NCBI RefSeq assembly: GCF_040732315.1
Contig: NZ_CP160388.1
Span: forward strand, 434,001 to 498,000
DNA: 64,000 nucleotides
Source: Oryzisolibacter sp. LB2S
Lineage (GTDB): Bacteria > Pseudomonadota > Gammaproteobacteria > Burkholderiales > Burkholderiaceae_C
Direction: 5' to 3'
In this document: piece by piece, positions 21,639-28,812 of the stretch
How the letters are laid out: every line of letters starts with the position of its first letter
Position numbering within the stretch: the first letter of the stretch is position 1
Notes under the pieces: generated by a model
Databases searched by the model: none
Told to the model about the DNA's origin: nothing
What the model saw: only the letters and a program-made list of their open reading frames with translations
Made by a program: the position numbers and the translations under genes

Positions 21639-22778
21639 TCAGGCTTCGCGCACCAGCATCTCGCCCGAGATGTCGGCCACGCGGGCCACGCTGGTCAGCG
21701 TCATGGCCACGCGCATTTCCTTCTCCAGCAGCTCCAGCAGCTGCTTGACGCCGGCCTCGCCGGCGGCGGCCAGCGCATAGATGTAGGCGCGGCCTATCAT
21801 GGCGCAGTCCGCGCCCAGGGCCAGGGCGCGCACGACATCCAGGCCATTGCGCACGCCCGAGTCGAGCAGGATCTTGATCTGCCCCTTGACCGCGTCGGCG
21901 ATCGCCGGCAGCGCGCGCGCCGAGGACAGCACGCCGTCGAGCTGGCGCCCGCCATGGTTGGAGACGATGATGCCGTCGGCGCCAAAGCGCACGGCGTCCT
22001 TGGCGTCCTCGGGGTCGAGGATGCCCTTGATGACCATGGGTCCCTTCCAGAACGCACGAATCCACTCCAGGTCCTTCCAGGAGATGGAGGGGTCGAAGTT
22101 CGCACCCAGGTAGCCCATGTAGTCCTCCAGGCCCGTGGGGCGGCCGCGGTAGGCCGAGATGTTGCCCAGGTCGTGCGGACGCCCCAGCAGCCCCACATCC
22201 AGCGCCCAGCGCGGGTGCAGCACGGCCTGCAGGTAGCGGCGCATGGCGGCGTTGGGGCCGCTCATGCCCGAATGCGCGTCGCGGTAGCGTGCGCCGGGCA
22301 CGGGCATGTCCACGGTGAACACCAGGGTCGAGCAGCCGGCCGCCTGGGCGCGCTCGAGCGCGTTCTGCATGAAGCCGCGGTCCTTGAGCACGTAGAGCTG
22401 GAACCACATGGGGCGGCGGATCTGCGGCACGACCTCCTCAATGGGGCAGACCGAGACACTGGACATGGTGAACGGAATGCCGTGCGCGTCGGCCGCGCGC
22501 GCGGCCTGCACCTCGCCGCGGCGGCGGTACATGCCGGTCAGGCCCACGGGCGACAGCGCCACGGGAATGCTGAGCTTCTCGCCGAACAGCTCGGTGCTGG
22601 TGTCGAGCTGACTCATGTCCTTGAGCACGCGCTGGCGCAGCGCCACGGCCGACAGGTCGTCGACGTTGCGCCTGAGCGTCTGCTCGGCATAGGCGCCGCC
22701 GTCGATGTAGTGGAACAGAAAGGGCGGCAGGAACTTCTCTGCGGCGGCGCGGTAGTCGGCGCTGGAGGAAATGATCAT
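21639..22778 (-). CDS. lldD: L-lactate dehydrogenase, FMN-dependent
   Basis: 379 residues from the ATG at 22778 ([20 protein letters not shown]), which aligns with the start of E. coli LldD as I know it. High similarity continues through [40 protein letters not shown] and [10 protein letters not shown] (active-site His). It oxidises L-lactate to pyruvate at the inner membrane and passes electrons to the quinone pool. It starts 10 bp after the lldR stop, so translation is probably coupled. Third gene of lldP-lldR-lldD. Confidence 0.97.
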
Positions 22779-22788
22779 GGCAGGGTTC

Positions 22789-23577
22789 TCAGGCAAGAGG
22801 GTTGGTGGTGGTCAGCAGCGGCGGCACCAGGTCCGGTGTCAGGCGCATGGAGCGCTCGCGCCGTGCGCGGTCTTCGTCGAGGCGCTGTATGGTCGTGCGC
22901 ACATGCTCGAGGTGCTCGCCCATGCATTCGCGCGCGCGCTGGGCATCGCCGTCGAGGATGGCCTGCAAGAGCGCCTGGTGCTGCGCCGTCAGCGCCTGCA
23001 CCGTCGTCGGCGTGTTCTGGTGGAACATCTCGTGGCGGTTGCATTCCACGGTGGACAGCACCAGGGTGAACAGGCTGTGCATGACCTGCACCAGCACCAG
23101 GTTGTGCGAGGCCTCGGCGATCGCGAGGTGAAACTGCGCGTCGGCACGCGCGGCCAGTTCGGCGTGGCCGCCCTGCTGGTGCGCGAGCATCACGTCGAAG
23201 CAGCGCCGGATGCGCTCCTTGTCCTGCTCTGTGGCGCGCTGCGCGGCCAGCCAGGCGGTGCTGGTCTCGAGCGCATGGCGCGCCTCGAGCACGTCGTAGC
23301 GGTAATGCGGGTCGGCATTGATCAGGCCCGCCAGCGGCTGCATGGCCTGCTGCAGCCAGTCGGCCGTGGGGCGCGGCTGCAGATAGGTGCCGTCGCCACG
23401 GCGCGCCGAGAGCACGCCCTGGCTGGTCAGTTTCTGTATGGCCTCGCGCACCGAGGTGCGCGAGACGCCGAGTTCCTCGGCCAGCAGCCGCTCCGCGGGC
23501 AGGCGCTGGCCGGCCTGCAGGCCGCGGGCCTGGATCAGGGCCAGAAGCTGTTCGACGACGTGATCGGCAAGACGCAT
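22789..23577 (-). CDS. lldR: GntR/FadR-family lactate regulator
   Basis: 262 residues from [20 protein letters not shown]; an in-frame ATG at 23619 would add 14 residues and overlap lldP, and neither start has a good ribosome site. Winged helix: [20 protein letters not shown], then a FadR-C (FCD) ligand domain containing [10 protein letters not shown]-like ([15 protein letters not shown]) and [14 protein letters not shown] segments, closely similar to E. coli LldR. LldR senses L-lactate and controls lldPRD by binding two operators. Two perfect operators are found upstream of lldP (25413-25427, 25528-25542). Confidence 0.94.
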
Positions 23578-23597
23578 GGGGGCAATCGTGGGTGGTT

Positions 23598-25283
23598 TCA
23601 GTGACCCGGAATCATCCACGGCAGCACATAGGCCTGCAACGTCGTCATCAGGCCGATGATCACCGCGAAGATCAGGCTGTGCTTGACCGTGAAGCGGAAC
23701 AGGTCCGACTCCTTGCCCGCCAGACCCACGGCCGCGCAGGCGATGGCAATCGACTGCGGCGAGATCATCTTGCCCGTCACGCCGCCCGTGGTGTTGGCCG
23801 CCACGGTGAGCACCTGGGGCAGGCCGAGCTGCTGCGCCGTGGTGGCCTGCAGCGCGCCAAACAGCGCGTTGGCCGAGGTGTCCGAGCCCGTGAGGAACAC
23901 GCCAATCCAGCCCAGGAAGGGCGAGAAGAAGGTGAACGCCTGGCCCGTGTGCGCCAGCGCCAGGGCCAGCGTGGCCGACAGGCCCGAGTAGTTGGCAATG
24001 AAGGCGAACGCCAGCACCATGCCGATGGAATAGATCGGCACCAGCAGCTCCCTGAAGGTCTCACCCAGCGTGGCCACGGCCTTGGCCGGAGACAGCCGCG
24101 AGAAGACGATGGTGATGATGGCGCCGATCATGATGGCCGTACCCGTGGCCAGCAGCCAGTTGAAGCTGTAGACCGCGCCGTAGGGCGTGGCGCCGGCCAC
24201 CACGGGCGGCATCTTGGCCACCAGGTTGTGCAGCATGGGCACGGGGATGTTGATGACCGTGGAGGCCAGCGGGCCGCCCGCGGCAAACAGGGCCTTGAAG
24301 GGCTTGACGCTCCAGATCGTCACCATGGCCGTGAGGATGATGAAGGGCGACCAGGCCTTGAGGATGGTGACTGTGGTCAGCGGCGGGTGGGTGTCGGCCG
24401 GGCGGGCGGCCTTGACATCGTGCGCGCCCTGCGCGCCACCCTCGGTCTCGAAGCGGAAGATGCGCTTGGGCTGCCAGACCTTGAGGAAGGCCGTGAGCGC
24501 CACCAGCGAGACGATGGCCGAGGTGATGTCGGGCAGCTCGGGGCCGATGTAGTTGGCCGTGAGGAACTGCATCAGCGCGAACGATCCGCCGCCGACGAGC
24601 ACGGCGGGCCAGGTCTCCTTGACGCCGCGCCAGCCGTCCATGATGGCCATGAGCCAGAACAGCACGATCACGGTCATGAACGGCAGCTGGCGCCCGGCCA
24701 TCTGGCCGATGGCGAACGCGTCCACGCCCGACACCTGGCCGGCCACGATGATGGGGATGCCCATGGCGCCGAAGGCCACGGGCGCCGTGTTGCCGATCAG
24801 GCACAGGCCGGCCGCGTACAGCGGCTTGAAGCCCAGGCCCACGAGCAGCGCCGCCGTGATCGCAACGGGCGCGCCAAAGCCCGCCGCGCCCTCGAGGAAG
24901 GCGCCGAAGCAAAAGCCCACCAGGATCAGCTGCAGCCGCTGGTCCGGCGTGACCGACAGGATGGACGAGCGGATCACGTCGAACTGCCCCGTCTTGACCG
25001 AAATCTTGTAGAGGAACACCGCCGCCACGATGATCCAGGCGATGGGCCACAGGCCGTAGAAGAAGCCGTACACGGCCGAGGCCAGCGCCGCGCTGGCCGG
25101 CATCCGGTAGAACAGCAGCGCCACGCCCAGGGCCAGCAGCACCGTGATCGTGCCGGCCTGGTAGCCCTTGAGGCGCAGCCGGGTCAGCGCGAGAAAGAAG
25201 AAGACGATGGGGATGAGGGCAACCAGGGCCGAGATCCAGATGTTCCCGGCAGGGTCGTAGTTCTGTTGCCAGAGGGTTTGCAT
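23598..25283 (-). CDS. lldP: L-lactate permease
   Basis: 561 residues from [20 protein letters not shown]; the open frame continues upstream but without family similarity. Many transmembrane helices with the LctP signatures [20 protein letters not shown] and [17 protein letters not shown]. It imports L-lactate (and related 2-hydroxy acids) with protons. First gene of lldPRD; the ribosome site is poor. Its 130 bp leader ends at the proximal LldR operator. Confidence 0.96.
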
Positions 25284-25412
25284 GGGCGAAAAGCGTTGGT
25301 GCGGGCCGCAAGGGCCTGCGGTTGTCAGTCGCCCCCGTCTGCCGCCCGCGGACGGGGGCAAGGGGAGGCTTGCATGCCTCGTGCCACGGCATGGGCCGGG
25401 AGTGGTCTGCAA

Positions 25413-25427
25413 ATTGGTATAACCAAT
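25413..25427. promoter_or_regulatory. LldR-type operator O-proximal
   Basis: Perfect inverted repeat ATTGGT-ATA-ACCAAT. It fits the FadR-subfamily consensus TnGTnnnACnA. Its centre is 115 bp from an equally perfect second site. Lies 130 bp upstream of lldP. Confidence 0.8.
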
Positions 25428-25475
25428 ATGGTCTGTGGCGCGGAGTGCGGCGATTTTCGTGCCGTAGGCAAATCC

Positions 25476-25510
25476 TTGGTTATAGGGTTAGTACCTAGAA
25501 ACATAACCAA
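25476..25510. promoter_or_regulatory. Inverted repeat between the LldR operators; possible lldP promoter
   Basis: TTGGTTAT (25476-25483) and ATAACCAA (25503-25510) form perfect 8-base arms 19 bases apart, each resembling an operator half-site. On the minus strand TATAAC (25484-25479) could be a -10 box; the spacing to any -35 is not ideal. Confidence 0.4.
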
Positions 25511-25527
25511 TTCTGCATTTTCTGATT

Positions 25528-25542
25528 ATTGGTCGTACCAAT
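25528..25542. promoter_or_regulatory. LldR-type operator O-distal
   Basis: Perfect inverted repeat ATTGGT-CGT-ACCAAT, same arms as the site at 25413 but with a different spacer. The paired arrangement mirrors the O1/O2 organisation known for E. coli lldPRD, where looping is proposed. Confidence 0.8.
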
Positions 25543-25617
25543 ATCCGTCGTCGATCGCCTGCAAGGCCCGCCCGGTTCGCGCTCGTCGCACGCACGGGAA
25601 TCGACGGATTGCCTCTG

Positions 25618-25669
25618 TTTTGATAGCTGTCTGCGCTTGTCAGCAAAGGGCTGGAGGCCAATTTGAGCC
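25618..25669 (-). repeat. Dispersed palindromic repeat, copy c
   Basis: Minus-oriented member: TTTTGATAGCTGTCTGCGCTT, loop, then GGGCTGGAGGCCAATTTGAG. One of the fullest copies. Located in the lldP/bug intergenic region. Confidence 0.78.
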
Positions 25670-25790
25670 AAATTCTGGGCGCCTGCATGCGACAGCGCGG
25701 CGCCGGGCTTGCAGGGATTCCCTAGTGCGGAGCGCGGGCCCGCGCCCGCATCATCGATGCCCCATTTCGACCATTACCAGGAGACAACGC

Positions 25791-26771
25791 ATGGGAATCA
25801 AGACCGTACTGGCCACCGTGGCCCTGGCTCTGGGCTGCGCGGCCACTGCCCAGGCGCAGACCGGCAACTACCCCAGCCGCCCCATCACCCTGGTGGTGCC
25901 GGCCGGCGCCGGCGGCGGCACGGACGTGGTGGCGCGCGTGCTGGCCGACGAGCTGGGCAAGCGCCTGGGACAGGCCGTGGTGGTGGACAACAAGACCGGC
26001 GCATCGGGCATGCTCGGCACCCAGGCCGTGGCGCGCGCCGCCCCCGACGGCCACACGCTGCTCGTGGCCTATTCCACGCCCGTGTTCTACGCGCACCACA
26101 TCTTCGCCAAGGTGCCCTACGACATCCGCAAGGACTTTGCCTTCATCACCCAACTGGCGGCCACCAGCCTGGTGATGATGGTCAACGCCAATGTGCCCGT
26201 GACGAACATGAAGGAATTCATGGCCTGGGCGCAGCAGAACAAGGGCAAGATCAACTACGGCTCCTACGGCCAGGGCTCGGCCGGCCACCTGATGAGTGCC
26301 TACCTGAGTGACTCGCGCAAGCTCGACATGACCCATGTGGCCTACAAGAGCGAGGCGCCGCACATCCAGGACCTGGCCGGCGGCGTGGTCTCCTGGGGCC
26401 TGGGCACGATCGCCGCGGCCCAGGGCGTGATCAAGGACCATCGCATCCGCCCCATCGCCATCTTCGGCCCGAGGCGCCTGGCCGAGCTGCCCGATGTGCC
26501 CACCATGGCCGAGCAGGGCTTTGCCGACCCCGAGTTCAACACCGTCGCCTGGTTCACGCTGCTCGCGCCCGCGGGCACGCCCAAGCCCATCCTGCAGCGC
26601 CTGGAGAAGGAGTCCGTGGAGATCATCCACTCCACGCCCATGAAGGCGCGCTTCCAGGTCTTCGGCCTGGAGTCCGTGCCGGGCGGCTCGGCGCAGTTCC
26701 ACAAGGATTTCGATGCCGTCGATCCGGTGATCGCGAAGCTCGTGAAGATCTCCGGCGTCAAGGCCGAATGA
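25791..26771 (+). CDS. Bug-family solute receptor
   Basis: 326 residues from the ATG at 25791, preceded by CAGGAGACAACGC (strong ribosome site); the much longer open frame upstream is not coding. Signal peptide ends near ATAQAQ. Bug motifs: ITLVVPAGAGGGTDVVARVL, NKTGASGMLGTQAVARAAPD, YKSEAPHIQDLAGG. It is divergent from lldPRD and shares its control region, so a link to organic-acid uptake is possible but unproven. No transporter partner nearby. Confidence 0.9.
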   Translation: MGIKTVLATVALALGCAATAQAQTGNYPSRPITLVVPAGAGGGTDVVARVLADELGKRLGQAVVVDNKTGASGMLGTQAVARAAPDGHTLLVAYSTPVFYAHHIFAKVPYDIRKDFAFITQLAATSLVMMVNANVPVTNMKEFMAWAQQNKGKINYGSYGQGSAGHLMSAYLSDSRKLDMTHVAYKSEAPHIQDLAGGVVSWGLGTIAAAQGVIKDHRIRPIAIFGPRRLAELPDVPTMAEQGFADPEFNTVAWFTLLAPAGTPKPILQRLEKESVEIIHSTPMKARFQVFGLESVPGGSAQFHKDFDAVDPVIAKLVKISGVKAE

Positions 26772-27996: not shown

Positions 27997-28048
27997 GGCG
28001 TGTTAACACTAATTGTTTTTGCGCCCGCCATGGCACAGACTGGCAGCC

Positions 28049-28812
28049 ATGGAGATAACGCCAGAACAATTCGCCAAGATCGAGCACTGCCTTCCCACGC
28101 AGCGAGGAAACGTCAGCCTGAGCAACTTGCAGGTCGTCAACGCCATCCTCTACGTAGCCGAGCATGGCTGCAAGTGGCGTGGACTGCCCAAGCGCTTCGG
28201 TAACTGGCACACGATCTACACGCGCATGAACCGCTGGACCAAGGCTGGGGTCCTCGACAGAATGTTCGAGGAACTGCAGAAGGCTCAGGTTGTGCGCATC
28301 AAGATCGAGGCGGTGTCACTGGACTCCACAAGCATCAAGGTGCACCCAGACGGCACGGGCGCGCTAAAAAAAACGGCCCCCAATCCATCGGCAAGTCTCG
28401 AGGTGGATGGACAACCAAGATTCATATGGTTGCCGCGGATGCTCGAACGGCCATAACGTTCTCACTGTCGCCGGGCCAGGCCGGCGATGCCCCACAAGGG
28501 CGCGAACTGCTCGCCAGCCTGGGCGCCCCGAACCGGCCGCTGCACCTGCTCATGGACAAGGCCTACGAGGGCAACGAGACGCGCCAGTTGGCGCTCGATT
28601 TGGGCTACATCCCCGTCGTGCCACCGCTGCGTACCCGCGTCGAGCCTTGGGAGTACGACCGCGAGATGTACAAGCGCCGCAACGAGGTTGAGCGTCTATT
28701 CCGCCGCCTCAAGGGCTTCCGGCGCATCTTCACGCGGTTCGAGAAACTCGACATCATGTTCCTCGGCTTCATCAGCTTTGTACTCGTCGCTGATGGGCTT
28801 CGGATGTGTTAA
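28049..28812 (+). CDS. IS5-family transposase (two frames joined by -1 frameshift)
   Basis: The first frame runs from the ATG at 28049 to about 28456; the second ends at 28812. The A-run 28366-28373 gives a perfect A AAA AAA slippery heptamer; slipping back one base yields KKNGPQSIGKSRGGWTTKIH, the normal IS5 continuation. The DDE triad is visible as LDSTSIKVHPDG, LLMDKAYEG and NEVERLFRRLKGF. Programmed -1 frameshifting is typical of this IS group, so the gene is probably intact rather than broken. The stop codon TAA lies in the right terminal repeat. Confidence 0.88.
28366..28373 (+). other. -1 ribosomal frameshift site in the IS transposase
   Basis: Eight consecutive A's; in the first frame they read CTA AAA AAA ACG, giving the slippery order A AAA AAA. 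Resulting frame continues to the catalytic D and E residues. Confidence 0.75.

Follow-up and report, generated by a model that had tools for sequence, protein, structure and literature searches.

Two predicted LldR operators upstream of lldPRD in Oryzisolibacter and the probable helical phasing of their spacing among relatives

LldR, the regulator encoded within the lldPRD operon of Escherichia coli, was reportedly proposed by Aguilera et al. in 2008 to act through DNA looping. One figure legend presents a tetramer-loop model together with E. coli LldR as an activator working from the operator O1 (PMC5412874), and excerpted text elsewhere describes LldR boxes in two sets at every E. coli target (PMC10272880). 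LldR regulons have been reconstructed across Proteobacteria, with a table entry that reads LldR 55 (13) (PMC5343134). LldR, PdhR, GlcC and others share TKGT/ACMA boxes in which GT and AC stand 3 nt apart, and the same account of FadR-subfamily motifs covers double-site divergons and analyses the inter-site distance for them (PMC4494728). In the excerpts of these last two reports, distance is related to intergenic length and not to helical phase, and Oryzisolibacter is unnamed.

Looping by LacI, AraC and GalR favors spacings that are one helical turn apart, according to the excerpted account of a 2021 reporter screen in E. coli (PMC7804116). When LldR sites were placed at lacUV5 in this screen, the distal site gave no extra repression (PMC7804116). 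The proximal LldR site alone likewise had no effect (P = 0.47), and the assay may therefore lack sensitivity for LldR.

An lldPRD operon with two predicted LldR operators

The DNA considered here, referred to as the window, is a stretch of 64,000 nucleotides from Oryzisolibacter sp. LB2S. It carries lldP, lldR and lldD contiguously on one strand, and every one of the three exceeds its NCBIfam cut-off (Table 1). The regulator has Pfam GntR and FCD domains, shares 48% identity with E. coli LldR, and falls below the cut-offs for PdhR (182.8 versus 330) and GlcC (146.4 versus 301). The genome encodes another LctP-family permease at G000:C1:3753350-3754993, with 45% identity to LldP.

Table 1. Features of the lldPRD region, in window coordinates
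Feature	Position	Strand	Basis and remarks
lldD, FMN-dependent L-lactate dehydrogenase	21642..22796	-	NCBIfam NF033901, 748.7 bits (cut-off 550)
lldR, FadR-subfamily GntR regulator	22792..23619	-	NCBIfam LldR equivalog, 378.6 bits (cut-off 311)
lldP, L-lactate permease	23601..25283	-	NCBIfam NF007740, 1021 bits (cut-off 918)
Predicted operator O2, ATTGGTATAACCAAT	25413..25427	.	Leader, downstream of the predicted lldP promoter; exact match; conserved in relatives
-10-like hexamer GAAAAT of the predicted lldP promoter	25453..25458	-	TATAAT/TACAAT/GAGAAT at the aligned position in relatives
TAGGTACTAACCCTA, degenerate copy of the [AG]G[GT]GTTTACCCTG element	25483..25497	-	Alignment and measurement
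Predicted operator O1, ATTGGTCGTACCAAT	25528..25542	.	Upstream of the predicted lldP promoter; exact match; conserved in relatives
Copy of dispersed repeat, TTGATAGCT-N4-GCGCTTG	25620-25639		Between O1 and the Bug gene
Conserved block like CAGGTATCCCCTATTGG	25710-25728		Just upstream of the Bug gene; alignment of three genomes of the genus
Divergent Bug/TctC solute-binding protein gene	25791..26768	+	Pfam PF03401; not judged part of the LldR unit

The palindrome ATTGGT-N3-ACCAAT occurs twice in the window, with identical arms around ATA in one copy and CGT in the other and a start-to-start gap of 115 bp. An earlier note on this DNA, made from the sequence, had described two perfect operators at this distance and had likened them to the two of E. 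coli lldPRD. Both observations hold. The E. coli K-12 operon has the same order (lldP-lldR-lldD), two palindromes upstream of lldP and the regulator within the operon, and differs in a spacing of 126 bp. On a position weight matrix built mostly from relatives, the window's operators score 24.7 and 22.6 bits and the E. coli operators score lower (20.4 and 11.1). The motif class and the double sites also resemble those of the reconstructed LldR regulons, as excerpted (PMC5343134, PMC4494728). With its two predicted LldR operators, the window promoter is well formed and ordinary, and its layout is one already known for lldPRD. What is new here is the comparative evidence on spacing described below; no paper that treats helical phase in the spacing of LldR operators in different species was found by title or abstract in the open-licence literature.

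Exact copies of the palindrome are restricted to this promoter in the 3,842,277-base genome, where a whole-genome search returned two sites only, both upstream of lldP. When up to two mismatches are allowed, the window still yields just these two matches, both exact; shuffled windows gave a mean of 0.40 matches and reached two in 7 of 100 shuffles. With up to one mismatch there are five places in the genome, two of them the exact sites, compared with two places for the reversed-pattern control. One of the one-mismatch sites (L004) lies inside an apparent coding sequence, and another (L003) adjoins the start of a PutA-like frame.

A single TTGGT-N3-ACCAA is common: 103 of 150 family genomes have at least one, and reversed controls are often equally frequent, which rules out the single site as a diagnostic of LldR control. 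Unlike the single site, the close pair is rare. It was found in 26 of 398 family genomes (Y/R allowed, 73-133 bp), 7 of 320 order genomes (73-133 bp) and 2 of 369 class genomes (68-128 bp), with reversed controls at zero among the matches listed. For the shorter core TGGT-N3-ACCA, 18 of 227 xanthomonad-type genomes had a pair and about 20 a control match. Because the control is about as frequent as the pattern, these pairs were used only beside lldP or lldR.

Relatives were collected by a genome scan for lldP, which supplied the best 80 loci among the matches listed, and searches of family, class and order genomes added more; the lldP search of the 369 class genomes at E 1e-180 found only five. 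The 450 bp before lldP were scanned with the matrix at 118 loci, taking the two best sites per locus with no distance restriction. Pairs were then kept when both sites scored at least 6 and lay at most 200 bp apart, a filter that excludes L063 (208 bp). Seven loci were without a usable pair, two of these being one locus fetched twice, and the remaining 111 reduce to 97 different sequences. Fifteen of the 26 family genomes with a pair have lldP beside it, two (G699 and G536) were retained among the non-lldP pairs, and nine were dropped for want of any lldP or lldR match in the locus. Several of the dropped spacings (74, 126, 125, 75, 91, 129, 82, 124 and 97 bp) are off the pattern described below. 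Of the 18 xanthomonad-type genomes, eight have lldP, seven have lldR-lldD with no lldP in the locus, and three with neither match were dropped. The seven lldR-lldD pairs (97-99 bp) are probable homologues of the lldP block and were left outside the statistics. One xanthomonad-type genome with lldP (G764) has a third site and hence spacings of 78 and 98 bp.

Across lldP loci, the operator pair tracks lldR. In a table of 99 such loci, lldR lies downstream on the same strand in all 80 that have a scored pair, and the eight loci with no lldR match at all (seven distinct, L009 and L050 being one locus fetched twice) have no pair. The other 11 carry an lldR-like gene and no pair in that table. Five of these do have pairs, at 118, 105, 104, 104 and 126 bp, and in three the only regulator is distant and divergent (31-40%), and a pair is absent. 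Sites at L063 and L170, where an lldR-like gene is present, are weak and off the spacing pattern, and L073 lacks upstream sequence. The five pairs at 104-126 bp are from plasmid records; they were added afterwards and stand outside the 97. No scored pair was found at the fetched lldP loci of Skermanella, Azospirillum, Aquabacterium, Cupriavidus and Deinococcus.

Taken with the LldR equivalog in the operon and the match to the E. coli layout, this co-occurrence makes the two palindromes well-supported predicted operators of LldR for lldPRD, as the earlier note had read them. ATTGGT-N3-ACCAAT resembles the PdhR box as well, and the genome has eight FCD-domain matches. That the main protein on these sites is another FadR-subfamily regulator, such as a PdhR, would agree with the likeness of boxes within the subfamily (PMC4494728). 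We nevertheless consider it most improbable, given that no further exact site exists in the genome and that the adjacent lldR co-occurs with the pair.

Probable helical phase of the operator spacing

Among the 97 different pairs upstream of lldP, the distance from O1 to O2 is 86 bp in one pair, 95-98 in 15, 103-108 in 20, 113-118 in 20 and 124-127 in 41, and the intervals 87-94, 99-102, 109-112 and 119-123 are empty. The periodicity measure R is 0.78 for this spacing. In the same loci it is 0.21 for the distance from O2 to the start codon and 0.17 for that from O1 to the start, and neither distance has a comparable period. The fit is best at a period of 9.8-10.0, somewhat short of the canonical 10.5.

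A naive jitter test (0/3000) ignores ancestry and carries no weight. Treating nine clade blocks as single values gives R = 0.86, with p = 0.0015 when periods from 9.5 to 11.5 are scanned and only p = 0.05 at a period of 11.0. For contrasts, p is 0.002 at a period of 10, 0.031 at 10.5 and 0.15 at 11; both blocks and contrasts were defined after the distances had been seen. Under a tree-aware null, in which spacing changes along the tree without regard to phase, p lies between 0 and 0.108, the upper end occurring with few events. When this null is matched to the data both in spread and in how many distinct values occur, p lies between 0 and 0.015.

Spacing class switches several times on the LldP tree, and by eye some 6-8 of the switches are independent. 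The Comamonas testosteroni group has 95-97 bp versus 115-117 in its sister group, and a Delftia clade has 124-127 versus 113-118, with G022 at 127. Acinetobacter puyangensis has 86 versus 103-108, Mixta 117-118 versus 124-127 in other enterics, and xanthomonads stand at 96-98. The Mixta step and the step between 96 and 115 are not whole turns of 10.5, and L063 and L170 depart from the pattern.

Two-operator arrangements also occur away from lldP, at eight loci that make up seven blocks. Seven of the loci lie beside an LldR-like regulator (34-47%), in divergons with spacings of 107, 127, 109, 108, 113, 117 and 108 bp, and one lies beside a TRAP-like gene with a spacing of 115 bp; partner genes (lutA-like, dehydrogenase-like, TRAP-like) were read from translated frames. 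The seven blocks fit the phase learnt from lldP (p = 0.033-0.040). By themselves, the non-lldP pairs have no significant periodicity (p 0.11-0.28). Regulator divergons at 107 and at 127 bp occur under one genus code.

Two of these loci have distinctive surroundings. In G699 the 115-bp LldR-type pair (L125, 1500-1629) is upstream of an apparent TRAP-type solute-binding gene and not of lldP; G095, of the same genus code, has lldP in place of this gene. In G536 three LldR-like sites, 53 and 108 bp apart (L139, 1447-1622), have an LldR-like regulator on one side and a dehydrogenase-like frame on the other.

These data suggest that operator spacing probably keeps its helical phase across relatives. 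We grade this as probable and not proven, since the choice of blocks followed inspection of the distances and the fitted period is slightly short. The same shortness, the few independent switches and the unmatched tree null (p up to 0.11) are what would be expected if the operators were real and their spacing clusters were due to chance and shared ancestry, with phase unselected. That account is unlikely in our judgment, since it is opposed by the matched tree null, by the aperiodic distances from O2 to the start in the same loci, and by the agreement in phase of the non-lldP pairs.

The predicted promoter and a possible loop

A predicted -10-like hexamer between the operators is conserved in an alignment of Comamonadaceae. 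The window's copy is 84 bp from the start of O1 and 31 bp before the start of O2. Thirty Comamonadaceae promoters were measured. All nine with spacings of 124-127 have 41-43 bp from the -10 to O2 and 82-86 bp from O1 to the -10. In 19 of the other 21, the -10 is 29-34 bp from O2, and in these 19 the distance from O1 to the -10 is 82-86 bp (15 promoters) or 65-67 bp (four). At L007 and L042 the automatic choice of -10 fell off the aligned hexamer. As judged from this alignment, the step from 115 to 125 bp is an apparent turn added downstream of the predicted -10 (31 to 42 bp), and the other step in Comamonadaceae is an apparent loss of about 18 bp upstream of it (84 to 66 bp).

Of the 30 Comamonadaceae lldP promoters, 27 have a conserved [AG]G[GT]GTTTACCCTG element 35-38 bp upstream of the -10. 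Exact AGGGTWWWCCCTR has 10 strand matches at seven places in the genome and none for the reversed control, and several of these places are just before frames read as PutA-, GlpD-, CoA-transferase- and LysR-like. A visual comparison of the conserved GGGTTTACCCTG element with the CrbR ACTU motif, as excerpted, showed no resemblance. Rfam gave no match over 25250-25850 at E up to 1.

From the observed sites and genes, the conservation of the pair with lldR and the spacing steps of about 10 bp, we infer the following mechanism, in which we have reasonable confidence. The two palindromes would serve as LldR operators of lldPRD that bracket its promoter. In the absence of lactate, an LldR dimer would bind each operator, and pairing of the dimers would close the DNA between them, about 11 helical turns, into a loop that spans the lldP promoter and shuts it. 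Lactate would loosen O2 and thereby release the promoter, after which O1 might aid activation, as described for E. coli. The earlier note had proposed looping at this spacing, and the phased spacing across relatives favors the idea; the published reporter screen, in which LldR did not loop, weighs against it (PMC7804116). The case for phasing differs in kind from that for LacI, AraC and GalR, as it is evolutionary, and no looping was seen in the experiment on LldR sites (PMC7804116, excerpted).

Alternatively, the promoter could have two separate LldR operators and no loop, with O2 blocking elongation and O1 acting as an activator site. The negative reporter screen (PMC7804116) and the description of E. 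coli LldR as an activator from O1 (PMC5412874) are in line with such an arrangement, which we regard as rather unlikely. It demands that the distance from O1 to RNA polymerase keep the same helix face, and a road-block requires no phase. The step from 115 to 125 bp falls between the -10 and O2 and leaves the distance from O1 to the promoter unchanged, so activator-polymerase facing alone would be hard put to explain the spacing. The sole O1-to-promoter step seen, 84 to 66 bp, amounts to 18 bp or 1.7 turns. An added downstream turn is a requirement of a loop and is not required by an activator touching polymerase. This alternative overlaps with that of chance and ancestry, and the likelihoods assigned to the two are not exclusive.

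A broader form of the looping model can be put forward, to which we give even chances. LldR would be a true looping repressor, and its loop would have changed in length by steps of one or two turns (about 86, 96, 105, 115 and 126 bp) during the evolution of beta- and gammaproteobacteria, through insertions or deletions both upstream and downstream of the promoter. Non-native geometry would then account for the negative lacUV5 screen, and the rule would extend to LldR-like regulators of other lactate-utilisation divergons. Natural promoters that differ from one another by about whole helix turns offer an independent line of evidence on LldR looping, and they are constructs at hand for testing it. 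Lactate biosensors make use of LldR and its promoter, according to excerpts of two reports (PMC5412874, PMC9775004), and spacing would be a design rule for them.

The divergent Bug gene

The earlier note had also raised the possibility that the divergent Bug gene shares control with lldPRD. Among 151 loci with an lldP match, which include duplicates and distant permeases, only four distinct genomes have a Bug ortholog (at least 90%) next to lldP and divergent from it: that of the window, two of the same genus (G004 and G142) and a close MAG locus (L038). Conservation of the divergent layout in these close genomes is what a shared divergon would predict. However, many relatives without the Bug gene keep the operator pair, and the distance from O1 to Bug varies (about 250, 285 and 455 bp in three aligned genomes), so that a Bug ortholog and the pair were not found at a fixed distance. 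The separate conserved block like CAGGTATCCCCTATTGG is probably Bug's own promoter or a regulator site. Shared LldR control of Bug is consequently unlikely, and a divergon in which the operator pair also governs this gene deserves very little credence.

The dispersed repeat between O1 and Bug, TTGATAGCT-N4-GCGCTTG, has 144 matches in the genome with up to one mismatch (69 forward, 75 reverse) and none for its reversed control; it has no Rfam match (25250-25850, E up to 1). Further along the window, an IS4/5-type transposase occupies two overlapping frames at 28013-28812, the first matching Pfam DUF4096 and the second recognised as kin by reading.
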